Positions 2,380-30,896 of a stretch of DNA of 64,000 nt are shown one piece after another. The translations under genes and the position numbers were made by a program. Origin of the DNA: an uncultured Spirochaetaceae bacterium. Its GTDB lineage: Bacteria; Spirochaetota; Spirochaetia; Sphaerochaetales; Sphaerochaetaceae. Where the stretch lies: NCBI GenBank assembly GCA_944390015.1, contig CALXOL010000014.1, positions 1 through 64,000 of the forward strand. The letters are read 5' to 3'. The first letter of the stretch is position 1, and every line of letters starts with the position of its first letter. Below the pieces are notes generated by a model, which saw nothing but the letters and a program-made list of their open reading frames with translations, searched no databases and was not told the origin of the DNA.

Positions 2380-3018
2380 TCAACTATTCGATTCGAGTCG
2401 TAATATAATGTTTCCAGCATATACTCCTGAAGAAAAAGCTCTATCTGTGGAGTCCTCCAATTTTGGGGGCTTTAATGTCAATGTTACTTCTTTAGTTTTC
2501 ATTCCATTAGACTCATTATTTCTCGTAGCATCTTCAGTCTTACTTTCTATAGTGATTGTACGAGCGTCTAAGTCCAATGGCCGATTTATGTTTTCATCAG
2601 CAAAATTAATTGATTCATCACAGTCTTTCACTGCTACAGAATAATTTAGCCCTATCTCATTAGAAAGAACTGAATTTCCACTATCATCTATCTTTATGAG
2701 AGAGAGCATATATCCACCAGTACCTCCAGAGGCTGCAATTCCACTAGTGAAAACTAGTTTTAGGTTATAACTGGCATCATAAATATTGTATTTTACTCCA
2801 AGAGTTAATTCATACGACCCAAGTTTATCTTCTTCTGATGATGATGGTATAAAATAAAACTCTGATTCTTCCGCTCCTGTAGAATCACAAAAACCTAAGT
2901 AATTCTCACTTTTCTTTGTGAAATGAAAGTTATACTCTAAGTTTTCAGGATCTATATTTTCAGCATATATAACAGAAACGGATAAAATGCAAATTAACAA
3001 AATAAGAAACTTCTTCAT
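2380..3018 (-). CDS. Secreted subunit-like protein 13 (last gene of chaperone-usher-like operon)
   Basis: Predicted 212-residue exported protein. I start it at the ATG at 3018, which overlaps the stop of the gene before it (ATGA) and has GAGG about eight bases upstream; the longer frame lacks this. The signal peptide is MKKFLILLICILSVSVIYA followed by ENID. The mature part keeps the weak operon-wide pattern: a GF motif (YLGFCDST), a central beta region, and a C-terminal strand with alternating hydrophobic residues (YAGNIILRLESNS). It is more divergent than its neighbours. Subunit role is inferred from operon position and shared layout. Confidence 0.7.
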   Translation of the reverse strand: MKKFLILLICILSVSVIYAENIDPENLEYNFHFTKKSENYLGFCDSTGAEESEFYFIPSSSEEDKLGSYELTLGVKYNIYDASYNLKLVFTSGIAASGGTGGYMLSLIKIDDSGNSVLSNEIGLNYSVAVKDCDESINFADENINRPLDLDARTITIESKTEDATRNNESNGMKTKEVTLTLKPPKLEDSTDRAFSSGVYAGNIILRLESNS

Positions 3019-3587
3019 TGCACTGCCTCTATGCTTAATACCAGATGCCATCCATATTTAGTGGACCAATCCATATTCCCAAGTTTGCCCATATTTAAAT
3101 CTAAGACAATGGGGAAACTATCAACTCTAGGCTTATTACCCTCAACATTATCCTCATATACAGTAACACCAGCAGTGCTAGTTGAATTAAAGTTATTTAA
3201 TCCAGAACTAGTACTTTTTGCAACATTTTTCCACCATGGATCGTCTGAGTTATCGTCTGGAGTCTTAATATTATTATCGTTACTATAATTTTGCACAGCT
3301 AATTTCAATCTTACCTTATTAGGAGTAAATATCTGATAATACACATAGAACTGCTTAGTTCTTATCAGATTGTTTCCTATCGATTCAAAATATATTTCAT
3401 CAGACATTACATCTGGTTGTACAACGGTATCTACAGCTTCATCGGAAAAACCAAACACAGAGTGGGTTGTAGCGGTAAAGTATACGTTGGCGATTGCATA
3501 ATCAACGCCTTCCTCCGCCTGCTCTACTGCAAATAATGACAATGAAATAAGCATTATAAAGATAATTGAAATTATTCTTCTCATCAT
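3015..3587 (-). CDS. Secreted subunit-like protein 12
   Basis: Predicted 190-residue exported protein. The ATG at 3587 overlaps the previous gene's stop (TGATG). The signal peptide ends LISLSLFA before VEQA. It shows the shared motifs: HSVFGFSDEA (GFS motif), FYVYYQIFTPNKVRLKL (the YxI strand of the family), and a C-terminal strand HLVLSIEAVQ. An ATGA overlap with the next gene shows tight translational coupling. No enzymatic motif is visible. It is most simply a structural subunit secreted by the usher-like protein upstream; this is an inference. Confidence 0.72.
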   Translation of the reverse strand: MMRRIISIIFIMLISLSLFAVEQAEEGVDYAIANVYFTATTHSVFGFSDEAVDTVVQPDVMSDEIYFESIGNNLIRTKQFYVYYQIFTPNKVRLKLAVQNYSNDNNIKTPDDNSDDPWWKNVAKSTSSGLNNFNSTSTAGVTVYEDNVEGNKPRVDSFPIVLDLNMGKLGNMDWSTKYGWHLVLSIEAVQ

Positions 3588-4231
3588 CACTCCACATTTA
3601 CTGTTACTGTAATATTTCCTGTATAAGTTCCTATATAAACATCCGTTTTAGCTAAATCAATGCCAACAAAGGTTTCAGCATTATCACCACTTCCAACTTT
3701 AATCGTCTCATTACCCATGTAAATCGTAATGGATCTTGCACCTACATCACCTAGTTTTCCTGTAGGAAGTTTATATGATGCAAAATTCTCCAAGCTCGTA
3801 GTACCACCCGTTTTAAGTGTACTGGATGATCCTGCTCCTCTTTGCACAACAACTCGCCATGGAATTGTTTTTTCTCCATTCATCATAGAATTATCTATTT
3901 TTATATCAAAGCTTAAAGACTGGTTGCTTATGACTTTCCAATAGAAATAAATCGTCATGCTCCCTGATAGATACGAATCATTACGTAAAGTAACAGGCAA
4001 ACTAAAAGAAGAAGAAACAGTAGGATTTGAAGAAAAATCGATAACGTTAGTACTGGAGAAACCGATGTCATATGAAATCAACTTACTCATATCTAGAATA
4101 AGATCGGCCTGTGCCTTTTTATCATCAAGGAACACCTTACCATCTTCTCCTAACTTTATATGCTGATATGTCTGAGCAGACAGTGACAGCGATATGAATA
4201 GAATCAATATCATTGACATCAGTTTTCTCAT
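3587..4231 (-). CDS. Secreted subunit-like protein 11
   Basis: Predicted 214-residue exported protein. The start at 4231 (MRKLMSMILILFISLSLSA, cleavage before QTYQ) has GGAG ten bases upstream and gives a clean signal peptide; the frame extends five codons further without improving it. Shared features are DIGFSSTN, IYFYWKVISNQSLSF, a central Trp (IPWRVVV), and a C-terminal alternating strand YTGNITVTVNVE. No cysteine pairs or lipobox are present. It is a probable fimbrial-type subunit of an Ig-like fold. Confidence 0.72.
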   Translation of the reverse strand: MRKLMSMILILFISLSLSAQTYQHIKLGEDGKVFLDDKKAQADLILDMSKLISYDIGFSSTNVIDFSSNPTVSSSFSLPVTLRNDSYLSGSMTIYFYWKVISNQSLSFDIKIDNSMMNGEKTIPWRVVVQRGAGSSSTLKTGGTTSLENFASYKLPTGKLGDVGARSITIYMGNETIKVGSGDNAETFVGIDLAKTDVYIGTYTGNITVTVNVE

Positions 4232-4256
4232 ATTTTCATACTCCATACCAATTTAA

Positions 4257-4886
4257 TTAATCATTGGATACAGTTACATAAAGATACGCAGAATACACAT
4301 CTGCTGGTAATTTGGAATAATCTACTGTTGTTATGTTCAGTTTTTTATACCCCACCTTTCCCATAGGTTTACCTTCTCCAACTTCATGTGTATAAATTTT
4401 CCCTTCTCCTGCTTTTGACCCGCAAATAGGTGTTTCCCCTTCCGATACGGTCCAATCAAGACCCTGTGCTAGTTTTTCTCCCATAAGCTGTCCAGAAACC
4501 GACATTTTTATTTTTATCGGAAGTCCAGATTGCACACTCCAGAAAACATATAAGTCAGAGCATAAAGAAGCCGTTGCTGTATTTGAATCAGGAGTCAAAG
4601 ATGCGGCAGGTACAATATTGTCACCAGTTGGAACTTTTATCACAGAAAGATTTGATACATCATTTGAAAATCCGACTATTACCTTCTGCCCTGCGGCGCT
4701 AGGATTTCCTTCTTCATCCACACCCAAGCCAAGCTTTACTTCCAAATATGCCTGCTTGTCCTCTATTGATGACTCTGAAGTAAGTTCACCTGTTAATGTC
4801 GCACTACCAGAAGAACCTTCTGGTACAGCAAAAAGTGTAAAAGAGAATATAATCAAACAACTAAATAGTATTATTAACTTTTTCAT
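4257..4886 (-). CDS. Secreted subunit-like protein 10
   Basis: Predicted 209-residue exported protein with signal peptide MKKLIILFSCLIIFSFTLFA before VPEG. It has the fullest set of the operon's shared motifs: VIVGFSNDV, LYVFWSVQSGLPIKI, LDWTVSEGE, IYTHEVGEG and the terminal strand YLYVTVSND. The order is the same as in the paralogues at 4899, 5560 and 6326, so these arose by tandem duplication and divergence. AAGGGA upstream of the ATG is the ribosome binding site. Confidence 0.75.
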   Translation of the reverse strand: MKKLIILFSCLIIFSFTLFAVPEGSSGSATLTGELTSESSIEDKQAYLEVKLGLGVDEEGNPSAAGQKVIVGFSNDVSNLSVIKVPTGDNIVPAASLTPDSNTATASLCSDLYVFWSVQSGLPIKIKMSVSGQLMGEKLAQGLDWTVSEGETPICGSKAGEGKIYTHEVGEGKPMGKVGYKKLNITTVDYSKLPADVYSAYLYVTVSND

Positions 4887-4898
4887 TTTAAATTCCCT

Positions 4899-5546
4899 TT
4901 AAACAACATCTATAGTTGCAATAATACTTCCAGTATAATTACCTGGAGTTGAATCAACATAGGAATCCGTCTCTATGCTAAGCTCTTTTACTCCAACACT
5001 GGAGAAACCATCTGCATCAGGATCATGGACGGTCACTGTAATGTTTTCTTTATTACCATCACCTGCCACGCTGGGTGAGGACAAAGAATTTTTTCCCTCT
5101 TTGAGAGTCCAGCCAAGCTTATGGGTAGTATCGCCACCTGCAGTTCCTGTAACTTTATATTCCAAGTCACCGCCAAAAGAAAGAACGACATTAATCTGGT
5201 CGTCATACTGAATCTGATAGAATAAAGCGAGATACGTAGATTCAAAATTCTTACCATACTTTGCAGTGCCAGAAGTAGCATCGGGTTTTAGCGTGATGCT
5301 TTCAGCTGCAATCACAACTTCTCCTGCGTTTCCTGGTTTTTCATTTTCATCCTTAATGAATCCAATTGTAACACATTTGTTACTATCATCTTTCATATCA
5401 AATGTGGCATTTAAAGAAACCTGAAGCCCATCCGTATTATCAGAGTCAGAACCTATAGTAGCAGAAACCTTTCCTGGCATAGGATCTGCAAAAACACAAA
5501 TCATTACAAATAATAATGATAAAATCAAAAATAAAGTTTTTTTCAT
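4899..5546 (-). CDS. Secreted subunit-like protein 9
   Basis: Predicted 215-residue exported protein; signal peptide ends FVMICVFA before DPMP. Family motifs in order are VTIGFIKDE, LALFYQIQYDDQINV, LGWTLKEG, and the C-terminal strand YTGSIIATIDVV. It is closest in layout to the genes on either side of it. It lies in the same unbroken minus-strand gene run as the chaperone and usher. Subunit function is inferred. Confidence 0.75.
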   Translation of the reverse strand: MKKTLFLILSLLFVMICVFADPMPGKVSATIGSDSDNTDGLQVSLNATFDMKDDSNKCVTIGFIKDENEKPGNAGEVVIAAESITLKPDATSGTAKYGKNFESTYLALFYQIQYDDQINVVLSFGGDLEYKVTGTAGGDTTHKLGWTLKEGKNSLSSPSVAGDGNKENITVTVHDPDADGFSSVGVKELSIETDSYVDSTPGNYTGSIIATIDVV

Positions 5547-5559
5547 GTTTCCTCCTCTG

Positions 5560-6207
5560 TTAATTGCTTCCTACTGATTCAATCATGATATAAAGATCGC
5601 CTTTATATGTATCAACAGCCTTTCCAGCATAATCATATGTCTCAATTGAAATTGGCTTATAGCCTGCTTTATAGATGGTTGTACCCTTTCCGGTTGGACT
5701 ATGAGATAAAATAGGGCTAGCGGTCTTAGTCATTGTAGATGTCGTATCTGGAATATCTAACAATACATCTTCTCCTGATTTTATCTTCCACCCAAGCTTG
5801 TTTTGCTTGTCAGTTTCACCTGTTAGAGGAGTAGAAATACCTAAATAGACATTTAACGAATTAAATGAAGTAATCTGCCCATAAGCATTAATAGTCGAAA
5901 CATCCCCTTCAGCATTAGTGGCAATTCTATCGCCATTGGTATCTTTTAATGTTACCTCAGCACTGATAGGAGTTACCTTCGTTGTTACACTAAAACTTTC
6001 TTCATTTAAAGTATCAGATGTAAACCCAATCTCTACATTATCCTTTATGTTATCACTTTTGATTTCAAACGATGCTTTGATAGAAGCCTGTTGATCATTG
6101 CCTAAATTATCATCGATCTGATTACCATTATTCGTCCAAGAACCATCTGCAAGCAAAGGAAATGCTATCAGCAGACCCAAAACTAAAACTGAAATTACTT
6201 TTTTCAT
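5560..6207 (-). CDS. Secreted subunit-like protein 8
   Basis: Predicted 215-residue exported protein; signal peptide MKKVISVLVLGLLIAFPLLA before DGSW. Motifs are VEIGFTSDT, YGQITSFNSLNVYLGI, LGWKIKSGE, ILSHSPTGKG, and the terminal strand YKGDLYIMIESVG. It is preceded by the longest gap inside the operon (6208-6325), which carries an inverted repeat, so it may start a sub-operon of six genes. AGGGGGAAAAG upstream of the ATG gives a strong ribosome binding site. Confidence 0.75.
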   Translation of the reverse strand: MKKVISVLVLGLLIAFPLLADGSWTNNGNQIDDNLGNDQQASIKASFEIKSDNIKDNVEIGFTSDTLNEESFSVTTKVTPISAEVTLKDTNGDRIATNAEGDVSTINAYGQITSFNSLNVYLGISTPLTGETDKQNKLGWKIKSGEDVLLDIPDTTSTMTKTASPILSHSPTGKGTTIYKAGYKPISIETYDYAGKAVDTYKGDLYIMIESVGSN

Positions 6208-6325
6208 CTTTTCCCCCTACCTTTGTTAAAATTATTTAACAAATTCTTTTACTCGTTTTTTATATTCATCTACCCCAACCGAGTAGTTGTTTCCTAACTT
6301 TATTTCTCTCTTCTACATCTCTCAC
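6208..6325 (-). promoter_or_regulatory. Internal operon gap with inverted repeat
   Basis: This 118-base gap is the only long break in the subunit gene run. It carries the near-perfect palindrome TTTGTTAA-AATTA-TTTAACAAA around 6222-6243, about 15-35 bases before the start at 6207. The position fits an operator or an internal promoter element. A clear -35/-10 pair was not identified. Confidence 0.35.
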
Positions 6326-6994
6326 TTAAACTCCATCAGCGGCAATATTCACGTAAATATAGCCAATATATGTATCTACGGGTTTACCTCTGTAATCTTC
6401 GGTTTGAACAGTCAATTCTTTATAGTCCGCAACAGTACCTCCAGCATTAGCAGCCTGTTCATATATGGGAGAAACATGTGCCTCTTCTCCGACATTTTCC
6501 CTATATGAGACAGAACCAGTTAAGTATTGAGAATTATCGGTTGCATTCGGAGTTTTCCAGGAAACAGTCCAACCCAATTCATCACTAGTTCCTTCCAAGA
6601 GACCTGTCAGCCCCAACGACACAGTCAAAGCCATCTGAGACTTTATCTGGTAGAATACGTAGGCGCTGCCTTCATTATTATTGCCTTTGCCATCACCATC
6701 GAAATCATTAAGATCAAGAGTCGATATAATCGTTTCTACAGGAATCTCCGTATCAAATCCAAAACCTTCTGGAATACTTTTTGCAAACCCTATTGTCACC
6801 AAAGACGGGAGACTCGAAATTGTACAATTTACAGAAACTCCGATATTAACCTTATCTCCACTAATTAAAGTAACATTCTCAGGTTTTTTATATGATCCTT
6901 CATAGTAGTCATCCTCTCCTGGATATACAGTACTAGCAGAAACAGCAGTAATGAAGATGAATAGAATCATTGAAATAAGTACAAATCTTTTCAT
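6326..6994 (-). CDS. Secreted subunit-like protein 7
   Basis: Predicted 222-residue exported protein; signal peptide ends FITAVSA before STVY. Motifs are VTIGFAKSI, AYVFYQIKSQMALTV, LGWTVSW, IYEQAANAG and the terminal strand YIGYIYVNIA. It starts three bases after the stop of the upstream gene, so the two are translationally coupled. It is the largest of the closely related group of four (4257, 4899, 5560, 6326). Confidence 0.75.
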   Translation of the reverse strand: MKRFVLISMILFIFITAVSASTVYPGEDDYYEGSYKKPENVTLISGDKVNIGVSVNCTISSLPSLVTIGFAKSIPEGFGFDTEIPVETIISTLDLNDFDGDGKGNNNEGSAYVFYQIKSQMALTVSLGLTGLLEGTSDELGWTVSWKTPNATDNSQYLTGSVSYRENVGEEAHVSPIYEQAANAGGTVADYKELTVQTEDYRGKPVDTYIGYIYVNIAADGV

Positions 6995-6997
6995 AAG

Positions 6998-7543
6998 CTA
7001 CTCATCCTCCACCACAAGCGTCAGCTCTCCATGGTAAGTACCTGGAATCACAGTGCTAAGTGTTTCTGTTTCAATTCTCAAATCAGCCGTTCCTGAATGG
7101 GAAAGACTCAACTCAGGATGATGTGTATAAATCTCCTGTTTTGAGAAATCACCATCAAGCCCGATTGAAACCTCCTCATCCTTCTCATACGGAATCCACG
7201 TCACAGAGAAATCCAGCATATTACCAGAATCATCAGATAAAGGACTTCCCGTAAGAAGTACTTTGAAATTCCTAGGGCTACTGATATCCCAGAAAACTCT
7301 TATATCCTTTGATAGAATTCCATCCTTATCTATCAGCTCCTCTTCAAGACCAACCTTATCAAGTGAGTAAGAAGATAGATCCAAGGAGTACGGAACAGCA
7401 TCACTAGCTTCAATAAAGCCAAGTTCAACAGAATGCTCCATCTTATTCATGTTCAAATACATCGTAGTTGAGACACTATCTGTGGCAACAGAAACATAAA
7501 GGAAAAGGGTAAGTATAAGAATAAGGAGGATCAACTTCTTCAT
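6998..7543 (-). CDS. Secreted subunit-like protein 6
   Basis: Predicted 181-residue exported protein; signal peptide MKKLILLILILTLFLYVSVA before TDSV. Shared motifs are VELGFIEAS, IRVFWDISSPRNFKV, FSVTWIPYEKDEEVSIG, IYTHHPELS and terminal strand YHGELTLVVEDE. The start overlaps the previous stop (ATGA at 7540-7543). It is a compact version of the family, close to the minimum size for a single Ig-like pilin domain. Confidence 0.75.
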   Translation of the reverse strand: MKKLILLILILTLFLYVSVATDSVSTTMYLNMNKMEHSVELGFIEASDAVPYSLDLSSYSLDKVGLEEELIDKDGILSKDIRVFWDISSPRNFKVLLTGSPLSDDSGNMLDFSVTWIPYEKDEEVSIGLDGDFSKQEIYTHHPELSLSHSGTADLRIETETLSTVIPGTYHGELTLVVEDE

Positions 7544-8109
7544 ACATTCCCTCCTTCTACGCTGAGCGTAAGAATTATCTCCGTTGAATAACTCTTCACA
7601 GGAACATAAGTAAGATCTTCGGTACGTATTGTAATTGGTATGATTCCCTCACTTCCTATTGCAATTCCAGGATTATGCTCATAAATCAGCTTCGGAGCAT
7701 AATCATCGCCTCCGAAAACATCATGCTCAAACCCATCTATCTCATGGTCATGAATTAATGAACACCACTTTATCTCACCTTCTTCTTTTTCTAATGCTGA
7801 CAATGGTGCGCTCTCAAGAGTGATTTTAAAGCTCTTATCGCTCTGAATACGGTAATAGATATATAGATTTGTGCCAGCAATTATCCTATCGCTGTTTGTC
7901 TCAATGGTCTCAAGCGAAACATATGGGATACTATCTATCTCATCTTTGCCAAGTATATCCGGATCATCAGAAAAGCCGAATTCGACCTCATCCAATCCTG
8001 ATAAGGCAAGATTAATCTTCACCTCAGATTGAACCATTGGCTCTTCCGCATTTAAAGGAAGTATGAATAAGGATGTAAAGAGCAGAATAAATAACGCTGC
8101 TTTTCTCAT
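7540..8109 (-). CDS. Secreted subunit-like protein 5
   Basis: Predicted 189-residue exported protein; signal peptide ends FILPLNA before EEPM. Motifs are VEFGFSDDP, LYIYYRIQSDKSFKI, EIKWCSLIH, IYEHNPG and a C-terminal strand YSTEIILTLSVEG. The single Cys in the central Trp motif has no obvious partner. It is coupled to the genes on both sides (two-base gap before, ATGA overlap after). Confidence 0.74.
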   Translation of the reverse strand: MRKAALFILLFTSLFILPLNAEEPMVQSEVKINLALSGLDEVEFGFSDDPDILGKDEIDSIPYVSLETIETNSDRIIAGTNLYIYYRIQSDKSFKITLESAPLSALEKEEGEIKWCSLIHDHEIDGFEHDVFGGDDYAPKLIYEHNPGIAIGSEGIIPITIRTEDLTYVPVKSYSTEIILTLSVEGGNV

Positions 8110-8111
8110 CT

Positions 8112-8663
8112 CTAAAAACTCCTCAACTCCAAATCTATCGTTCCATAATACCTGCCTAAAGGCAGATCCTTCGGATTATCCCAACTGACAATGAAGGATA
8201 AAACCGGCTCCCCCTCGATAGCTCCCATCGGAGGAACAACAAGGTGCATCTCATCAGAACTGATGCTTGTTGTCTCAACTGCGCTGAGACATTTGTCAGA
8301 TCTGAGAATCTCAATCTCTATTGGAATAACAACATTGCTTTGCTCATTAACAAGGCCATCAGATTTAGCATTAATCACGACATCGTAATTAGATGCGAGA
8401 TTCCCATAATAAAGCAGTGAGAATGATGTGGATCCAGCACCCACGCTCAAATTTCCAAGAGAGAACTCTGGCTCTGAAAGAAGCTCATCCTCCCCTGATT
8501 CAAGTTCAATCTCGAATATCAAGCGGTCTATCGCCACGGCCTCAGGAACTACTACGCTGTAGTCCTCAGGAACAATCGCTTCCAGATATACTGTCTCACT
8601 CTCCACGGCAACGAGAGGAAGAGCTAGATATATAATCAACAACAAATAAAGTATTCTTCTCAT
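8112..8663 (-). CDS. Secreted subunit-like protein 4 (divergent)
   Basis: Predicted 183-residue exported protein; signal peptide MRRILYLLLIIYLALPLVA before VESE. It lacks the GFS motif of the other small subunits. It reads as a generic beta protein (YLEAIVPEDYSVVVPEAV early, then LSFIVSWDNPKDLPLGRYYG near the end) and ends in an alternating strand GTIDLELRSF. The divergent sequence next to the large 565-residue protein suggests a specialised subunit such as an adaptor; this is speculation from position only. Confidence 0.7.
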   Translation of the reverse strand: MRRILYLLLIIYLALPLVAVESETVYLEAIVPEDYSVVVPEAVAIDRLIFEIELESGEDELLSEPEFSLGNLSVGAGSTSFSLLYYGNLASNYDVVINAKSDGLVNEQSNVVIPIEIEILRSDKCLSAVETTSISSDEMHLVVPPMGAIEGEPVLSFIVSWDNPKDLPLGRYYGTIDLELRSF

Positions 8664-11007: not shown

Positions 11008-11717
11008 TCTATTGTCCCCCATTCAACAATTACTTTTGTCTGGTATGTCCCTATTGGTGCATTATTATATTCATTCTCATCTATCTGAAGCCTTACAGCT
11101 CCCCTACAGATCCAATAATCACTGGAGAAATCTATACCGTCATTCTGATTGTTATCTGCTATCGTCCATGTAACAACAGATGCATTGGACAGATCAGCTG
11201 CATCATAATCTACTGTATCCTTTGTATCCTTTTGAGTCTCATTGGAAGTCTTCTCGGTTATTTTAGCTGTGCCTGCCCCATCCATCTCTGTTGAATTGCT
11301 GTCATTAAAACGTAGATCCAGGTTATCAATCATGTAATGGCCACTTATTTGATTACCATCTGGAACTCTTTCTAATCCTTTTTCACTTTCCTGCATGAGA
11401 GCAAAATGGGATACAGCGAGTTTCACATAATATGAGCCAAGAGTTTGACCTTCTACACGGAAGCTTAAAAGGATGTTATTAGGATCACTTTCCGATAATT
11501 CTGTTCCGATATAATTGGAAAGAAGGCTGTCAATACTTCTGCTCTCTCCTGCTGTCATGTTTTCCAGAGAGTTATTCAATGCATCAACGACATAGAAGAA
11601 TGGCCCCTTCCCTTCTCCACCTACTCTGTAGGCAACAATTTCAAAAGATGTTTCCACTGCATTCAAATTTGTAAGCAGAAGTATAAAAGATAAAAGTATG
11701 CAAATAAGCTTTCTCAT
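11004..11717 (-). CDS. Secreted subunit-like protein 1 (next to usher)
   Basis: Predicted 237-residue exported protein; signal peptide MRKLICILLSFILLLTNLNA before VETS. It is the first gene after the usher-like protein and starts inside its stop codon (ATGA at 11714-11717). The C-terminus GTYQTKVIVEWGTIE follows the subunit pattern. No GFS motif is present. The position right behind the usher is where anchor or major subunits often lie, but nothing in the sequence fixes which. Confidence 0.7.
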   Translation of the reverse strand: MRKLICILLSFILLLTNLNAVETSFEIVAYRVGGEGKGPFFYVVDALNNSLENMTAGESRSIDSLLSNYIGTELSESDPNNILLSFRVEGQTLGSYYVKLAVSHFALMQESEKGLERVPDGNQISGHYMIDNLDLRFNDSNSTEMDGAGTAKITEKTSNETQKDTKDTVDYDAADLSNASVVTWTIADNNQNDGIDFSSDYWICRGAVRLQIDENEYNNAPIGTYQTKVIVEWGTIE

Positions 11718-14700
11718 AGAGCCACCTCCTCTACTGGATAAAGAAGGTTCCAGAACTCATCAAATGTCACATACTCACTTCCTCTATAGGAGTATGAGAG
11801 GACATATGGGGATGGAAGTTCATAACTGTTAAGGTATGCATCCTCAAGCAGGAGGACATTGTATCTCTCCTCCTCATCTTCTATGACTTCAAACATGTTA
11901 AGTTCCCATCCACTCTGGCTATCGACATCGAACGCATATAAGCCTGGGGTGAGGTCTGAGACTATGAACCTTCCATCCTGATCGGTGAAGAGATAGTATT
12001 CTGTCATCTCAAGAGAGATGGAGTTATCTTCGTTGAGAATCACTTTGTAAAGAGGACTTGATGCATTGATCCATAACTCTCCATTAGAACGGTATGCAAT
12101 ACCCGTTACGGAGTATCTGCTCTCACTCTCCATCTTGAGGATATATCCGCCAAGCCTTGATGCAGGTATCGTGATGTCCTGGCTTAAACCGCTTGAGAAC
12201 GAATCTGCAGGAGATGAATAGACGGTGAAGCTTGAACTCCTTCCCAGAGAAAGCCCTGTATAGAGTCCTGTATTGAAGAACATTGCAACATCATCAGGTC
12301 TAGAAGTTCCTATTGCTCCGATTGAAAGCTTATTCCCCTTTAACGCACCCCTTTGCTGAATAAGAATGAAGTTATTCGGAGCATAGGAAGAGAAAGCAAA
12401 CAGTCCATCTGCATAGACAGTTGCAAACGACGTGCTGAATGATAGCCTGTTCCTCTGGAACTTATCAGACGCACTGAGACCCATTGAGAAGCTGAATTTA
12501 TCTCCGGTATGAGAGTAGTTGGCACTCATATCATAGTTCTCGAATCTCGTAAGATCATTTGTATTTACCCTCACATCGAAGTAGTTTCCACTACCCGAAT
12601 ATGTATATGAGAGGCTGGAGTAATTATTGCTTGAATAAGAGGCATTTGCTCTAGAGCGGCCGAATCTTACCGTTCCTGAAATCCTTCCCGTGAAGGACGG
12701 GGTCTGCTCTCCTATTCCACTGAATGTAGCAGAACCTGAGATGTAGAAATTCCTACCGAGATTCATGCTGAGTGTTGCCGATGTATACCACGAACTGTTG
12801 ATGATATCAACAAGGTCAAGAGTTCCACTGAGGCCGAGAGACCAGCTTAAGAGATTGAATGAGCCTGAGAAATTAAGAGCTCCCGACAGCCTGCTTGAGC
12901 TGTAGTAGTCATCAGAGGCTGAACCGTTATATGTAAGACTTGCATTTATTCCGCTGAATTCCCTTATTCCCGTATAGGCCTGATGGCTTACCCTTGCATA
13001 AAGGGTTGGAAGAGTAAAACCATCATCCGCATTCTCTGTAAGGTTGAAATTATACCTTGTCGTACCGAGAATATTGGCGTGTGTAAGCTCAAGGGCATAA
13101 CGCATGCGTGGATTGAAATAATCATTATTCTCCACACTGTTCTTCAGCGCAAGCGATGTATTCATCGTCAAACTGGTTGTAAGGCCGGCACGGATATATC
13201 CAGAAGCGACTATGTTTCTCGCATCATACTCTAAGGCATAATCGCTTGAGAATGGTATTCTGAGTGCACCGAAAGTCTCCGATGAGGTACGGCTGACACG
13301 TTTCCTTCCTGTGAATAATCCTCCTCCGTAGTACATCTCGCCAGGAGCAAGGAGACTTGAAGAGTAGATGAGGTCAATCTCATCCCTGATGACCTCAGAG
13401 CCGTCAAGAGGTGTGATTATTATTTCAATTTTGTTCGCACCGCTATAGAGTACGAAATCCTCAAGCCTATAGTTTCCAGGTCCCAATGTCTTTCTATAAA
13501 TCTCCCTTCCTTCATTGAGAACCTGTACATCGGATTCTTTCTCTATCGTGATGTATCTCTCAATATGGCTGCGTCTCCTACTGCTGGAAGAACCATATGA
13601 AAGGGACTTGTCGAATCTGATACCGACACTCGTGCCATCTGGAGACAAAAGATCAGGAGATACATTTCCCCAGCTCAGTCTTATCATCTCATCCGTGAAA
13701 TCATGATAGAAGCTGTAGCTTCCAAATGCCAAAGAGAGATATGTCGGAGTTAAATTGAAGCTATAATTGAAATTGCCATATACGTCAAAAAGACGCATCG
13801 TGTTATAGCTTGATATATATAGCCTTGCATCATTCCACATATCCACTACTGGATAAAGCGATGTTGATGCCTGAATGCTATAGCGGCTTAAAAGAGTGAA
13901 TTTCGCAGGCTCAAGAACAAGAGAATTAGCAATAGGCCTTGATACCATCCTGACGTTATTACCTGATATGCTGATTATCTGTAGCGGCATATCCTTGGCA
14001 TTGAAAGTAAGATATACGTTGAAAGTGTTCAAATCGTAACTCGATTCAACACCTCGGCTCTCAAGGTCTTCAAGAGTTATATATTCAGACGTATCCATGA
14101 ATATATGGTTGAACGCCTCATCTGTAAGTGTAGATTCAACATATGTTTTGAGTTCTGTTGTCTTCAGAGAAAGAACATCGCCATCAAGATATGTCTCAAT
14201 GGAGCCATAAGGCTCACCATTGACATAAAGATTCATGTAGTAGATGCCGCTTTCATAAAGAAGATCATCCTCTCCTGCGATGTAGAAGGTAGCCCAGAAG
14301 TCCTCTTCGCTCTCATCTCCGTATATGGAAGGAATGGTAATTACCTCATCAATTCTCTGATTGACAACACTGACTGAGGGCATAGAAGGAGGAAGCACCT
14401 CATAAAGCTGAGATGTCGTGGCCTTGATTGTCGGAGTTGTCGGGATTCTGATTTCCACTTTCTCCTCTTCTTTTACAGCAATGACCTCTTCCATGCTTTC
14501 CTCTTCTTCTGGCACTTGAGGCTCTTCCTCCTCAATAACGACCGTTTCTACTTCCTCAACCCTTTCAGGTTCTTCTTCCTCTTCTATAAGAATCTGAGGG
14601 AGGATATCATCCTCTTCCACTTCAGGGGGGATGGAAAGGGTCCCATCCTCCCTCAGAGTTTCACCTTGTAAATCCACATCGGACTTTGATCCGAAATAGA

Positions 14701-14983
14701 TGATGCCAATGAGAATAAGCAGCAAGAACATCAATAGATAAATAAGGACGATCCCCCTGCTTAATCTCTCCTTACTCTCTCCTTCGAACTTCTCCCTGAG
14801 GAAAAGAACGAGCTCTGCGTCAGCGTATGTGAGGAATGCCAGAAGCACTACGAAGGAGACTCCTTCCCCTGCTACTTCATATCCTGCGCCCAAAAGTCTT
14901 CCTGCCTCCATAGCTGTAAGAGAGGCGAAAAATACCAGCAGAATAGAAAGCAGAATCAGTAATGCCAGCTTCCTCTTATCCAT
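11714..14983 (-). CDS. Usher-like outer-membrane protein with inner-membrane and acidic linker N-terminus
   Basis: A 1089-residue protein. Residues 6-22, about 42-62 and 78-97 are hydrophobic helices, with a basic loop (REKFEGESKERLSRG) between the last two. Residues 120-180 are a Glu/Pro-rich linker, then a Ser/Thr/Pro stretch. From about 215 it reads like an usher: periplasmic beta domain, long run of amphipathic Tyr/Ser/Asn strands (barrel), and a plug-like segment with VQVLNEGREIYRKTLGPGNY and DLIYSSSLLAPGEMYYGGG. A small C-terminal beta domain (DGRFIVSDLTPGLYAFDV) resembles the PapC C-domain. Classical ushers are 800-900 residues with a plain signal peptide; helices plus an acidic, TonB-like spacer are not part of that family. 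The PapD-like gene 35 bases upstream and 13 secreted genes downstream support the usher call. Confidence 0.75.
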   Translation of the reverse strand: MDKRKLALLILLSILLVFFASLTAMEAGRLLGAGYEVAGEGVSFVVLLAFLTYADAELVLFLREKFEGESKERLSRGIVLIYLLMFLLLILIGIIYFGSKSDVDLQGETLREDGTLSIPPEVEEDDILPQILIEEEEEPERVEEVETVVIEEEEPQVPEEEESMEEVIAVKEEEKVEIRIPTTPTIKATTSQLYEVLPPSMPSVSVVNQRIDEVITIPSIYGDESEEDFWATFYIAGEDDLLYESGIYYMNLYVNGEPYGSIETYLDGDVLSLKTTELKTYVESTLTDEAFNHIFMDTSEYITLEDLESRGVESSYDLNTFNVYLTFNAKDMPLQIISISGNNVRMVSRPIANSLVLEPAKFTLLSRYSIQASTSLYPVVDMWNDARLYISSYNTMRLFDVYGNFNYSFNLTPTYLSLAFGSYSFYHDFTDEMIRLSWGNVSPDLLSPDGTSVGIRFDKSLSYGSSSSRRRSHIERYITIEKESDVQVLNEGREIYRKTLGPGNYRLEDFVLYSGANKIEIIITPLDGSEVIRDEIDLIYSSSLLAPGEMYYGGGLFTGRKRVSRTSSETFGALRIPFSSDYALEYDARNIVASGYIRAGLTTSLTMNTSLALKNSVENNDYFNPRMRYALELTHANILGTTRYNFNLTENADDGFTLPTLYARVSHQAYTGIREFSGINASLTYNGSASDDYYSSSRLSGALNFSGSFNLLSWSLGLSGTLDLVDIINSSWYTSATLSMNLGRNFYISGSATFSGIGEQTPSFTGRISGTVRFGRSRANASYSSNNYSSLSYTYSGSGNYFDVRVNTNDLTRFENYDMSANYSHTGDKFSFSMGLSASDKFQRNRLSFSTSFATVYADGLFAFSSYAPNNFILIQQRGALKGNKLSIGAIGTSRPDDVAMFFNTGLYTGLSLGRSSSFTVYSSPADSFSSGLSQDITIPASRLGGYILKMESESRYSVTGIAYRSNGELWINASSPLYKVILNEDNSISLEMTEYYLFTDQDGRFIVSDLTPGLYAFDVDSQSGWELNMFEVIEDEEERYNVLLLEDAYLNSYELPSPYVLSYSYRGSEYVTFDEFWNLLYPVEEVAL

Positions 14984-24909: not shown

Positions 24910-25591
24910 CTAGGCCTCTTTCATTCTTTGAAAGAAAGTATTGAGATTTGAGTGCCTTTTCAGGGAATTAAGTTCTTTCTCAATGAAATTCCAAGACTCT
25001 AAATAGTTCTTGGAGACTGAAATCTCTTCTGATTCGATGAAATGCAAAAACTCACTGTTCCTATTTTCGTAGCGAAGAGAGAAATCATCATCTTCTCGGC
25101 ATCTGTACAATTCTGCTTTCCTGCCAGCACATGCTCAAGATTTGATGACATGTAATACACATGATACGGAACATCCCTTATTTTTTGCAACTGATTAATC
25201 GATATAGATTGGCTCTTTTTATATTATTTCTTCTTATTAAGGATTCTCTGTCACGTGCGTAGATTCCATCATCTTTGTACATCACCTTTTCTAAAGACTC
25301 ATCAGAAAATATGAAGGAATCCGGGATGAATGCACCATCAGTATCCACGATATGCACGATTTCTGCCATGTCACTTTTTCTTAATCTATAGTTACGCATC
25401 ACATCGGAGACGAGATCCCCTACCCGTATAAGGATATTATTGGGATTGGATCCTCTATGAGAAGTAATGTCCCCATGTACGACCTTAAACCGGATACGCA
25501 TAAAAGTGAGAAATTCAGTCAAACAGTTTTCCAAAGCGACCTGTTCTGACACACCTTCCACTATCACTATTAATACTTTCTTGCGTGTCAC
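24910..25591 (-). pseudogene. Toprim-like nuclease partner of ATPase, two frameshifts
   Basis: The first frame (25591-25178) gives KKVLIVIVEGVSEQVALENC and VHIVDTDGAFIPDS, a conserved Glu followed by a DxD, as in Toprim nucleases. It ends after NLYRLISCKK at an A6 run. The next frame continues QKIRDVPYHVYYMSSNLEHV to about 25095. The third frame completes it with REDDDFSLRYENRNSEFLHF and ends TFFQRMKEA. Rejoined, it is about 225 residues. The start overlaps the ATPase stop (ATGA). ATPase plus Toprim pairs are the layout of PARIS-like and other OLD-related anti-phage systems. Two separate shifts argue for a real pseudogene. Confidence 0.75.
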
Positions 25592-26991
25592 AAGATTTCT
25601 CCTGCTTTTCTGAATGCCATTGCTATCTTTGCATTATCGGTATAATCATATAGCTCTTCATCCTGAGTACCGACAGAGATATCCCTATAGTAAAAATCCC
25701 TTAGATTATTATTCGCCATCACATGTTTCATTCTGACATAGCGATTTAGCGGGTTTGTTGTCGTAAAAACGATGAACCTTTTATCTATCGTTTCAAGCGG
25801 ACGAAGATTGTGGGATGTGAAAATCAACTGCCCCCTCCCTTGCTCCGATATGATTTTTAAGATTTCTCCCAGAAGATACTCAAATACTCCAGAATCAAGT
25901 TCATCTATTGCTACCGTAATTGATTGCGTGTTGTAAGCTATGATCAGAAGATCAAGTATTGATATGATTTTCTTTATTCCATCTGATTCGTATTTCAACG
26001 GTATTATTTTTGAATTCCTTTTGGACATAAGTTCAATTCGGGTAGCCAGATGTCCATCCTTGAGAGTCTCATCCCCGTAATCTCTTACTTCAATCGTCAT
26101 GCCAGGTATTATCTTTTCAAGGACAATATTCATCCCCTCTATTACCTTGCTTATTATGTTCAAACGCTCTTTTAAAACAGGTGTAGGATGATCCATATCA
26201 AGAAGGATACTTGCAGCAATTCCCTGCTCAGGAAAGTCATATTTAAACATCATGGGAAGATAATTGAGATTTACGTAACCTGAAGAGACTGAATTGAGAA
26301 TGAACAGTTCCATTCTTCCATAAAAAACAATCCGTTCAATCAGACGGATGTATTTCTTCACATCTTCTTTCTTTTCTTCCACGTTATTCTCCAGCTTCTT
26401 TATAAAATCAGCAGAGAAAATAAAGGATCTCCCTTCCTGCGACGCAAGTTTCTTCAGTACAAGATAATCAGTAAACGTATTATCAGAGTCACCACAGATA
26501 TCTCTGAATTTTGATTCAGGAGCAAACACTTTGTTACTATCCGTGTTAATAACATCCATCATGCGTTTTTTCTCTCCTGGCAGTGCAATCTTCAATCGCT
26601 CGTTGTACACGGATACTCTTTTTTCTTCTTCCCAGTTATTTTTTGAAGCATCAAATACCTTATTGTTATAAAGCTGCATGAAGTCAAACTCATAGGACAT
26701 ATCATATTGCCCGTCGTCAAATTCCACAGAAAAGAAAAACTTAAGATGTGAAGTAGAACAATCAATCGTAGTATAGTCGGCAAAATATGAAGGAACCTTC
26801 GCTCCTATAATCAAATACCTTAATAAGCTGATTGCATCGATAAGAGCTGATTTCCCAGAGCCATTCTGTCCATAAACACCTAGAATGGATGCATTATACG
26901 GTCCTTTTGAATTAAGTGATATTACACCTTTTTCGACATTTTTAAAGTTTGTCAGTTCAATACCTGTTAATCTAACCACAGAGGAATCCAT
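25588..26991 (-). CDS. AAA/ABC-type ATPase of an OLD/PARIS-like module
   Basis: A 467-residue ATPase of the AAA_15/AAA_21 class. The N-terminus VRLTGIELTNFKNVEKG and Walker A YGQNGSGKSALIDAIS (about residues 39-54) are clear, with Walker B SITVAIDELDSGVFEYLL (about 350) and the H-loop QLIFTSHNLRPLE. These are features of SMC-like ATPases that act with a nuclease partner. The next gene, translationally coupled, is a Toprim-like nuclease broken by two frameshifts. It is not closely similar to the RloA-type ATPase at 631-1956. Defence function is inferred. Confidence 0.78.
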   Translation of the reverse strand: MDSSVVRLTGIELTNFKNVEKGVISLNSKGPYNASILGVYGQNGSGKSALIDAISLLRYLIIGAKVPSYFADYTTIDCSTSHLKFFFSVEFDDGQYDMSYEFDFMQLYNNKVFDASKNNWEEEKRVSVYNERLKIALPGEKKRMMDVINTDSNKVFAPESKFRDICGDSDNTFTDYLVLKKLASQEGRSFIFSADFIKKLENNVEEKKEDVKKYIRLIERIVFYGRMELFILNSVSSGYVNLNYLPMMFKYDFPEQGIAASILLDMDHPTPVLKERLNIISKVIEGMNIVLEKIIPGMTIEVRDYGDETLKDGHLATRIELMSKRNSKIIPLKYESDGIKKIISILDLLIIAYNTQSITVAIDELDSGVFEYLLGEILKIISEQGRGQLIFTSHNLRPLETIDKRFIVFTTTNPLNRYVRMKHVMANNNLRDFYYRDISVGTQDEELYDYTDNAKIAMAFRKAGEIL

Positions 26992-27206: not shown

Positions 27207-28469
27207 TTAAAAGAGGTCCTTATAATCCGCTTCTATCTGGGTATAAGAACAATCCCTGGTTATCATATCATAAAGAGTCTCAGGTACGGCTATTCTCTTC
27301 CCGATTATTGGCTCTACTATGCTGTCGAACTTCGCAGGATGCGCAGTCGATACTACAAGTGTCGGCACTCCCTGATAGAAGTTTCTCCTTACATACTCCG
27401 CACATGCGGTATGAGGACAGATTATGTATCCGCTCTCCTCATAGACCTCTTTAATCGTACTCCTGATCTTGAAGTCATCTACGCTGTGGCTTGTAACATT
27501 TGCCTTGAACTCATCATAGCTCTTGAAGAGACTGAACAGCCTCTCCATATTACTCGGAGCTCCAACATCCATGGCGTTGGCCAGCGTATGACAGCTCTTT
27601 CTCGGTCTGTACTCACCTTTTTCCAGATAATCAGGGATCGTCCTGTTTGCATTCACGGCAAGCTCGATATGCTCAATCGGAGCTCCCATGGCCTTTGCCC
27701 AGAAAGCACCCGTGGAGTTTCCCACATTTCCACTCGGCACGATTATAGTGGCCTTCTTGTGGTATCTTGCCTCATAGATGAACGATGCCCAGACATAGTA
27801 GACGACCTGAGGAAGAAGACGACCAAGGCTTATGCTGTTCGCACTGGTAAGACCGCTTAAATCCGGATCCATGAAAGCATCCTTCACCATCTTCTGACAG
27901 TCATCGAAAGTACCGTTGACCTCGAAGGATTCAACATTGCCGTCAAAGCATGTCAGCTGCCTCATCTGGCGCTCAGATACCCCACCCTTTGGAAAGAGTA
28001 CCTTTACCTTAAGGTGTTCCCTCTCATGGAAGGCCGCTGCCACCGCACCGCCCGTATCACCACTCGTTGCGACAAGTACGGTCAGATCCTCCTTTGTCTT
28101 TCTAAGTCTGTTTTCCATGAAGAAAGCGAGAAAACGCGCACCAAAGTCCTTGAATGCTGATGTCGGACCGTAATAAAGCTCAAGAGTGTCCGAGCCTTCC
28201 TTACCCTGATGGATGCTCACAGGGAACGAGAACGCCTTCTGGCAGATATCATAAAGGTCGTCATAGGATTCGTCCCCTTCAAAATAAGGCTTGAGCACCT
28301 CGTATGCGGCATACGCATACCCATTCTCCATGGTAAAGCTCTCACTCAAAGATGGAATGCTCTCAGGAACGAAAAGCCCTCCGTCTGGAGCAAGCCCCTT
28401 CATTATCGCCTCAGTTGCCTTGAATTTCTTTCCATTCTCATCACGTGTTGATACGAAATACATTGCCAA
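27207..28469 (-). CDS. thrC: Threonine synthase
   Basis: A 420-residue PLP enzyme that converts O-phosphohomoserine to threonine. The PLP-lysine motif GPTSAFKDFGARFLAFFM (near residue 105) and the phosphate-binding loop SGNVGNSTGAFWAKAMG are present, as are VATSGDTGGAVAAAFHE and the N-terminal helical domain of the long (E. coli-type) form. It follows the ThrA-like gene by nine bases; no thrB lies next to them, so homoserine kinase must be elsewhere. Confidence 0.96.
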   Translation of the reverse strand: MAMYFVSTRDENGKKFKATEAIMKGLAPDGGLFVPESIPSLSESFTMENGYAYAAYEVLKPYFEGDESYDDLYDICQKAFSFPVSIHQGKEGSDTLELYYGPTSAFKDFGARFLAFFMENRLRKTKEDLTVLVATSGDTGGAVAAAFHEREHLKVKVLFPKGGVSERQMRQLTCFDGNVESFEVNGTFDDCQKMVKDAFMDPDLSGLTSANSISLGRLLPQVVYYVWASFIYEARYHKKATIIVPSGNVGNSTGAFWAKAMGAPIEHIELAVNANRTIPDYLEKGEYRPRKSCHTLANAMDVGAPSNMERLFSLFKSYDEFKANVTSHSVDDFKIRSTIKEVYEESGYIICPHTACAEYVRRNFYQGVPTLVVSTAHPAKFDSIVEPIIGKRIAVPETLYDMITRDCSYTQIEADYKDLF

Positions 28470-28478
28470 AATCTCCTT

Positions 28479-30896
28479 TTATATCCTGCTTCCCAGATAT
28501 GCACCAAGACGTAGCATATCCGCAAATACTCCGGCAGCCGTAACCTCCGGTCCCGCTCCCGGTCCTTTGATTACAAGTGGCTGCTCATAATAGCGCCTTG
28601 TAGTGAATGCGATCACGTTATCCGTTCCATTTGCCTGACTGAACGGGTGGTCATCATCATACAGCTCAAGCCCTACGGAGCATACTCCGTCGCTGTCAAC
28701 CTTTCCGACATAGCGGAGATTCTTATTCTCCCCCTTCGCTTTCAGATAAAGGGAGTGCATCTCTTCATCCATCTCGCTTAGGCGGGATAGAAACTCCTCT
28801 TTCGAGGCATCCTTGAGGTAATCAGGGACAAGGGAACGGATCTTAATATCATCCACCTCAGTTCTATAACCCAATTCACGGGCCAGAATTACAGTTTTTC
28901 TCGCAACATCCATTCCAGAAAGGTCATCACGTGGATCAGGCTCGGTAAAACCCATCTCCTTGGCTTTGAGCACAAGGGCGCTAAACGGCATGCTCCCATC
29001 ATATGAGCTGAAGAGCCAAGCGAGAGTTCCTGATACCATTCCCTCTACTTTGATGATCTTATCACCCGTCTCCCTTAAATCCTTAAGTGTCGTTATGATT
29101 GGAAGGCCTGCGCCGACAGTGGTCTCATAATAGTAGCGGCTCCCTGTCTTCCTAGAAGTATCTATAAGGCCTTTGTAATAATCATAGGAGGAGCTGTTCG
29201 CCTTCTTATTTGGCGTTATTATATGGAAACCGGCTTCAAGAAGACTCTTATATGTTAATGCCCTCTCCTGGCTTGAAGTGCAGTCGATAATCACCTTATG
29301 GGGATAATATGTAGCCGCAATATGCTCCATGAAGATCTGCTCGTTATATGCGACTGCATACTTACTGAAAGAATCCCTCCATGAAGAGAGGTCTATACCC
29401 TCATCTGAGAGCAGCATCTTCTTACTGCTTGCTATTCCCCTTATCCTGATATCCAGATCAAACTCCGCCCTGAGCCGCTCCGATTCGCGCGCTATCTGGT
29501 CTAGCAGGGTCCCCCCGATATTCCCTGGCCCGAAAAGTCCGACAGAGAGGGTCTGCGCGGACATGAAGAAGACCGAATGGAGGCTTCTTAAAGCTTTTGC
29601 GGAGTCTGCCATCTTTATAACGGCGGAGATGTTCCTCTCGCTGGAGCCCTGTGCGATAGCCCTGATGTTTATGTTGCTCTTCGCAAGGGATGAGAAGAAC
29701 TTACCGGCAACACCGATGGCACCGGGCATCTCCTCACCTACTGCGGCAAGAATCGCACAGTCATTCTCAACCTCTATGCTGTTTATAGCCTTCTTACCGA
29801 GCTCCTCACTGAACTCCTTTCTTATCGTCTTAAGCGCTCCCTGGCTGTCGGATTTTGGAACGGCGAAACAGATTGAGTACTCACTGGATGCCTGGCTGAT
29901 GAAGATGACGCTGATCTTTTCATTTCTCAGTGCGGTAAATAGCCTTGATGATACTCCAGGAACTCCCGACATGCCGCTTCCCTCGACGTTTATCAGAGAG
30001 ACGTTGCGAACTACGGAAAATGCCTTTACCGCCCTGTCCTTGTCCTTAGTCACCTCACTAGATACTAGTGTGCCTTCATCATCCGCATCCCCCCAGTAGC
30101 GGAGGCTGATGGGAAGACCTTTCGCCTGAGCAGGGATGAACGAGTGTGGATGGACGATCGGAGCACCGAAGAAAGAAAGCTCTGTCGCCTCAGCGTAACT
30201 TAGGTTCTTTATTACCTTCGCACTCGGAACATCCTTGATGCTTGCAGTCCTTAAAAGAGACCTATGATTCCAGAACGTCAGAGGGGAATCAAGGTTTGAT
30301 GCTATTATTGAGGAGGTGTACTCACTCTCCCCTTCCCTGCGTATGCGCCCAAGGGCATCACGACGCTCGGTATCGGGAATGAGGAGCTTTCCGTAAATAA
30401 AGGAAGCACCCTCTGGGAAAGAGGATTTCCTTACCGCCTCATCTACCGAGAACATGCTCGCCTCAAGCCCGTTTATCTCAAAAAGGGCTGAGAGAATAGA
30501 AGCGACGAAGAAGCTTGTCATGCTCTCAAGATATATCCTGCTCTGCTCACTGCTTTTTTCTAAAAGCCATACGGCCTTGAGGATATCCTCGACTTTTGCA
30601 AAAGATGCGTTTATAGCCTCGGTTACGAAGCTCGTTACATCACGCTCAAGGCTGTTCTCACTAAGCTCAAGCCAGCTGTTGCGGCTGCGTTCGATGACTG
30701 CCCAGAGACGCTCATCCTTGCTCTCCGCCTTATCAAGGAGGCCAAGCAGGCTCAGCTCATTATCATTGACAGGGGAGATTACGAATATCTGATGCTTCTC
30801 TCCACCTTTCTTATACAGATCTAAAAGCTTTAATATGCCGTTTCTAGTGGAGACCATCACTCCCTCAACGGCATGGACCCTATAATCATCTTTCAT
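28479..30896 (-). CDS. thrA: ThrA-like protein: intact homoserine dehydrogenase, degenerate aspartokinase half
   Basis: 805 residues from the ATG at 30896 (GAGGGGG upstream). The layout is that of ThrA: aspartokinase-like domain (1-270), two ACT domains (about 290-440), homoserine dehydrogenase (450-805). The dehydrogenase keeps GPGNIGG, the NKKAN lysine, GAGLPIITTLKDL and FTEPDPRDDLSGMDVARK. In the kinase half the fold can be followed (LSYAEATELSFFGAPIVHPH is well kept), but active-site motifs are lost: KFGGTS is replaced by HAVEGVMVS, GRxGSD by REGESE and TDVDG by NHRSL. I expect no aspartokinase activity; another enzyme must make aspartyl phosphate. The ACT domains may still let threonine regulate the dehydrogenase. 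Confidence 0.85.
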   Translation of the reverse strand: MKDDYRVHAVEGVMVSTRNGILKLLDLYKKGGEKHQIFVISPVNDNELSLLGLLDKAESKDERLWAVIERSRNSWLELSENSLERDVTSFVTEAINASFAKVEDILKAVWLLEKSSEQSRIYLESMTSFFVASILSALFEINGLEASMFSVDEAVRKSSFPEGASFIYGKLLIPDTERRDALGRIRREGESEYTSSIIASNLDSPLTFWNHRSLLRTASIKDVPSAKVIKNLSYAEATELSFFGAPIVHPHSFIPAQAKGLPISLRYWGDADDEGTLVSSEVTKDKDRAVKAFSVVRNVSLINVEGSGMSGVPGVSSRLFTALRNEKISVIFISQASSEYSICFAVPKSDSQGALKTIRKEFSEELGKKAINSIEVENDCAILAAVGEEMPGAIGVAGKFFSSLAKSNINIRAIAQGSSERNISAVIKMADSAKALRSLHSVFFMSAQTLSVGLFGPGNIGGTLLDQIARESERLRAEFDLDIRIRGIASSKKMLLSDEGIDLSSWRDSFSKYAVAYNEQIFMEHIAATYYPHKVIIDCTSSQERALTYKSLLEAGFHIITPNKKANSSSYDYYKGLIDTSRKTGSRYYYETTVGAGLPIITTLKDLRETGDKIIKVEGMVSGTLAWLFSSYDGSMPFSALVLKAKEMGFTEPDPRDDLSGMDVARKTVILARELGYRTEVDDIKIRSLVPDYLKDASKEEFLSRLSEMDEEMHSLYLKAKGENKNLRYVGKVDSDGVCSVGLELYDDDHPFSQANGTDNVIAFTTRRYYEQPLVIKGPGAGPEVTAAGVFADMLRLGAYLGSRI

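Follow-up and report, generated by a model that had tools for sequence, protein, structure and literature searches.

Gene content of the locus

The window, by which we mean the whole stretch of 64,000 nt that was analysed, holds on its minus strand a thrA-like gene (28479-30896) encoding an 805-aa protein with a predicted pseudo-aspartokinase half and a homoserine dehydrogenase (HSD) half. The open reading frame is uninterrupted and in frame from an ATG at 30896 to a stop ending at 28479, and a ribosome-binding-like GAGGGGG lies 6 nt 5' of the ATG. By eye, the gap upstream of the gene was seen to contain an ORF for an L28-like ribosomal protein and also a hairpin resembling a terminator, and an Rfam scan of the window gave no match to a known RNA. 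Directly downstream on the same strand lies thrC, encoding threonine synthase (27207-28469), and the order thrA to thrC on one strand was found in 30 of the 30 loci read from the window's genus. The nearest named relative, with 89% identity, is Candidatus Ornithospirochaeta stercorigallinarum, and the window very probably stems from a spirochaete belonging to this genus. A sequencing or frameshift artefact was ruled out by the unbroken ORF and by full-length homologues, 84-89% identical, in five other genomes.

The protein is the sole homoserine dehydrogenase found in the window's genome. We did not find a thrB-type homoserine kinase (TIGR00191) in this genome despite the presence of thrA and thrC, and a homoserine kinase of another type may be used. 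Copy number of the ThrA-like gene varied in a few assemblies: in G040, which belongs to the window's genus and is 94% complete, the only ThrA match was a LysC-like one, and two assemblies (G025 and G053) had two full-length copies each on separate contigs, from either duplication or contamination.

Beside thrC, at 25178-26991 on the minus strand, we observed a two-gene unit in which an AAA ATPase gene overlaps a 137-aa ORF. The ATPase matched AAA_21 and, in PADLOC, AbiLi (E 2e-27) and AriA (E 1e-15), while the 137-aa ORF had no Pfam or PADLOC match and looks by eye like an RloB-like partner; the unit is a candidate anti-phage system. Further, ten minus-strand ORFs of 181-223 aa lie in a row at 2380-8663, with no Pfam match for the five that were scanned, and no Pfam match was found for a 1089-aa ORF at 11714-14983.

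ACT domains and homoserine dehydrogenase

The dehydrogenase half (aa 446-805; 28482-29561, minus strand) had been described as intact in the first-pass annotation, and this was borne out by Pfam matches to Homoserine_dh (1e-47) and NAD_binding_3, by the unaltered motifs NKKA and EPDPRDDLSGMDVARK, and by the match of this part of our structural model to yeast HSD 1ebf (Z 39.2). The same holds for the two ACT domains (aa 286-445; 29562-30041, minus strand), which had been reported as retained: Pfam recovered two ACT stretches, the predicted threonine-site motifs ISQASSEYS and AIAQGSSERNIS are intact and nearly invariant among the family homologues (n=55), and the model matched the regulatory domain of E. 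coli ThrA (6mx1) with Z 22.5 and 1.5 A.

Loss of the aspartokinase residues

By every sequence measure the protein belongs to the ThrA lineage. It scored 809 bits with the NCBIfam model NF006959 (AK/HSD I), which has a cut-off of 726, where it should be noted that the best stretch begins at aa 184 and spans model positions 201-815 only; Pfam AA_kinase likewise gave a tail match only (aa 188-263). The N-lobe (aa 1-183; 30348-30896, minus strand) appears to have an aspartokinase fold and has lost KFGGTS and the Glu127 position, while the C-lobe (aa 184-285; 30042-30347, minus strand) has lost GRNGSD and TDVDG and kept the SYAEATELSFFGAP-VHP helix. The first-pass annotation had reported KFGGTS, GRxGSD and TDVDG as lost, and we find AVEGVM, REGESE and NHRSL in their places.

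Residue by residue, from E. coli ThrA to the window protein, the N-lobe changes are K5 to A9, G7 to E11, S10 to M14 and E127 to S128, the last placed from the alignment numbering. In the C-lobe R204 is replaced by E188, D208 by E192, T227 by N210, D228 by H211, D230 by S213, G231 by L214 and R238 by K221. The roles of these residues we take to be those of the family in general, as in E. coli LysC and the aspartokinase structures of Methanocaldococcus jannaschii. The protein thus lacks the catalytic and substrate residues of ThrA and those of the ATP and aspartate sites of an aspartate kinase (EC 2.7.2.4). PMC6321352 deals with Arg241 of the M. jannaschii aspartokinase, to which K221 corresponds in the alignment. 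As the defining feature of an aspartokinase is missing, the window protein should not be called bifunctional. The NF006959 cut-off was nevertheless passed in 103 of the 139 family genomes, and proteins scoring above it despite a dead kinase would receive the name bifunctional aspartate kinase and enter metabolic models as such.

Fold of the kinase half

Homology of the kinase half to ThrA from end to end, as first proposed, was supported by both profiles and structure. A profile of 55 family N-lobes aligned with intact ThrA N-lobes over 177 columns with 98.1% probability (E 7e-13), against about 1% for an HSD decoy in the same comparison; a LysC profile, which is shallow with only few related sequences, lent no support (2%). 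An AlphaFold2 model of aa 1-286 reached pLDDT 79.5 and pTM 0.79. The structure-based comparison that the first-pass annotation had suggested placed aspartokinases as the best match of this model over aa 5-280 (3c1m, Z 21.1, 244 residues, 3.5 A), with UMP kinase, the next amino-acid-kinase family, well below at Z 13.9. The full-length model had a pLDDT of 73.9, with aa 211-250 under 50, and aa 5-445 of it aligned with 3c1n at Z 25.1 over 392 residues with 32% identity and an rmsd of 6.9 A, which probably reflects uncertain domain placement. Both models were built from alignments of 8 sequences only. A mis-alignment hiding the motifs was ruled out by the profile-profile and structure comparisons.

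The claim that the C-terminal part of the kinase half remains needs one refinement. The block SYAEATELSFFGAP-VHP is conserved, but the C-lobe around it is weakened as well: it is 27.5% identical to its E. coli counterpart, and the ACT and HSD parts are about 41% identical to theirs.

Separate aspartokinase

A search for another lysC-type gene, also put forward in the first-pass annotation, found one in the window's genome (G000:C4), encoding a 451-aa LysC with KFGGSS, RGGSD and TDVSG. In a search of 47 carrier genomes, a separate aspartokinase was present at full length in 42 and as fragments in four, and none was found in the remaining one, which is 85% complete. LysC is also present in most sampled genomes with an intact ThrA, hence a second kinase permits the loss but is insufficient alone to explain it.

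Spread and origin of the dead state

None of the 55 full-length homologues in the window's family, from 13 genera, has kept K5, G7, E127, R204, D208, T227 or G231, and D228 is kept in one. Genomes of five other families of the class (coded f3, f4, f17, f22 and f25) likewise lack D208 and E127, with traces of the motifs in f22, which retains K5 (KFD) and SADP and in some members DG, and in one f25 member with GRDG and VDGVMSADP. The motifs are intact or near-intact in f24, f42, f36, f45 and f5. The dead state is a clade trait across six families of one class, an old and shared loss that the first-pass annotation had not remarked on.

In a tree built from the ACT and HSD columns only, so that the kinase trait itself was left out, all kinase-dead rows form one clade (SH-aLRT 89), with the intact f5 as its sister (99, starred). 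Kinase loss probably arose once, though this is not proven: the tree was made by a quick method with uneven support, and a few long branches, those of the shrunken forms, are insecurely placed.

Selection and shortened forms

The pseudokinase domain is under purifying selection. For L021/L022, the only close pair with unsaturated synonymous change (other pairs being near or beyond saturation), omega was 0.045 for the N-lobe, 0.040 for the C-lobe, 0.010 for ACT and 0.017 for HSD. A pseudogene was ruled out by the low omega and the conserved HSD. Mean pairwise identity in the window's family is 30% for the N-lobe, 47% for the C-lobe and 62-64% for ACT and HSD; in the intact ThrA of f24 the C-lobe is the most conserved part (81%) and the N-lobe is at 63%.

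Against a reference set of 43 invariant positions from 34 intact ThrA, most substrate-site invariants are gone in the dead proteins (D208, E127, F190 and G7 0%; K5, R204 and D228 14%). Structural invariants persist (A254 100%, E253 and G261 96%), among them G292-T293 and those of the SY-EA-ELS-FGA--HP helix. This is the pattern of a scaffold retained after catalysis was dropped, and with fold kept, catalytic residues lost and purifying selection, the domain is of the pseudokinase type. All 13 genera in which it was sampled retain the domain at full length.

Naturally shortened ThrA-like proteins of 653-749 aa with a reduced N-lobe were found at L065-L067 (genomes G138, G136 and G137), L068 (G075) and L069/L070 (G072, G070). 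In genera g22 and g7 the N-lobe is shortened and the ACT threonine motifs are lost, with AIAQGSSE becoming LTTASPLD in a g22 member; g22 retains the HSD catalytic motifs and g7 shows changes in HSD too. Drawn from three lineages only, this weakly suggests a link between the dead kinase and threonine control, one that would not be strict since g10 has a shortened N-lobe and retains its ACT motifs.

Proposed role of the protein

We suggest, with a probability of roughly 0.7, that the protein is a monofunctional, threonine-feedback-inhibited HSD carrying an N-terminal pseudokinase in which the fold is kept and substrate binding and catalysis are lost. In such a scheme LysC would phosphorylate aspartate, and threonine would bind the ACT pair, as judged from motif conservation, and inhibit the HSD. 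The dead kinase domain would hold the oligomer together and may relay the ACT signal to the HSD. This agrees with the first-pass proposal that the kinase fold survives in a regulatory or structural capacity, to which purifying selection, the aspartokinase fold of the model and the intact ACT motifs lend indirect support. From species to species the pseudokinase changes more quickly than do ACT and HSD, which we count against this explanation and which is expected under partly relaxed constraint.

The lower lobe identities relative to f24 and the N-lobe shortening in three lineages would also fit a mere passenger, a folding appendage that is hard to delete and has no regulatory job. Such a domain would hardly show the low omega seen here or stay full-length in every genus sampled with it, and of the three lineages with a shrunken N-lobe two have decayed ACT motifs as well, which speaks against it; we hold this reading to be unlikely. 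Somewhat more doubtful still is that the pseudokinase has become a partner or sensor domain for a new ligand or partner, such as a metabolite in the old pocket, or that it joins LysC in mixed oligomers, by which threonine would control the true kinase too. Several former catalytic positions carry clade-specific residues that are near-invariant in the family (H8 100%, A9 93%, E192 100%, N210 98%), where W65, W75 and W110 also stand at 96-98%, and nearly every carrier genome has a separate LysC, but the near-invariant residues may just have a structural role. In its more specific form, with a remodelled site (H8, A9, W110, E192, N210) at which the domain would bind either LysC or a new metabolite, we regard the idea as speculative and improbable. 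If true, in six spirochaete families the first and third steps of the aspartate pathway would be under one threonine sensor.

That the kinase remains active through substitute residues elsewhere in the chain is highly improbable. The aspartokinase fold is retained and positions 23, 63, 107 and 266 are each K or R in no fewer than 89% of family members; yet position 266 aligns with E. coli K283, the other three match no lost residue, and the model places 23 and 107 within helices. In the family alignment we found no conserved lysine or arginine that would be a plausible substitute, and K5, E127, R204 and D208 are jointly lost in every family member read. Together with the loss of all key residues here and across the clade, and with a separate LysC of intact motifs, this supports the first-pass designation of the aspartokinase as catalytically dead, as far as sequence can tell.

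The finding matters for its ordered series of intact, partly decayed, dead and shrunken forms, in which a fused enzyme kept a head after losing its catalysis. With this series the part of a dead head in the allostery of the other head becomes testable by comparison.

Comparison with known systems

The window protein resembles E. coli ThrA (AK I-HSD I, NF006959) in domain order, ACT pair and HSD, and in having thrC near on the same strand; it differs in lacking all key aspartokinase residues, and its genome has no thrB between thrA and thrC. In the literature searched, which takes in few subscription journals, we came across no account of a ThrA whose aspartokinase domain is dead. The threonine-sensitive aspartokinase of M. 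jannaschii (2hmf, 3c1m, 3c1n) aligns with the chain over aa 5-445 and has similar ACT motifs, but it is an active kinase without HSD. The molybdenum storage protein (6ris, 2ogx) represents another use of the amino-acid-kinase fold outside metabolic kinases; it is a weak fold match to our model, with unrelated function and no ACT or HSD. A parallel in use may be N-acetylglutamate synthase (NAGS, ArgA), in which the amino-acid-kinase domain bears the arginine regulator site for the fused enzyme (PMC5146650); among the works cited in that paper is a study restoring ancestral kinase activity in P. aeruginosa ArgA. By analogy, an amino-acid-kinase domain would in both cases serve end-product regulation of a fused enzyme. 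They differ in that the kinase-like domain of NAGS itself binds arginine, whereas in the window protein the ACT domains are the expected site of threonine and the kinase-like domain is fused to a dehydrogenase.
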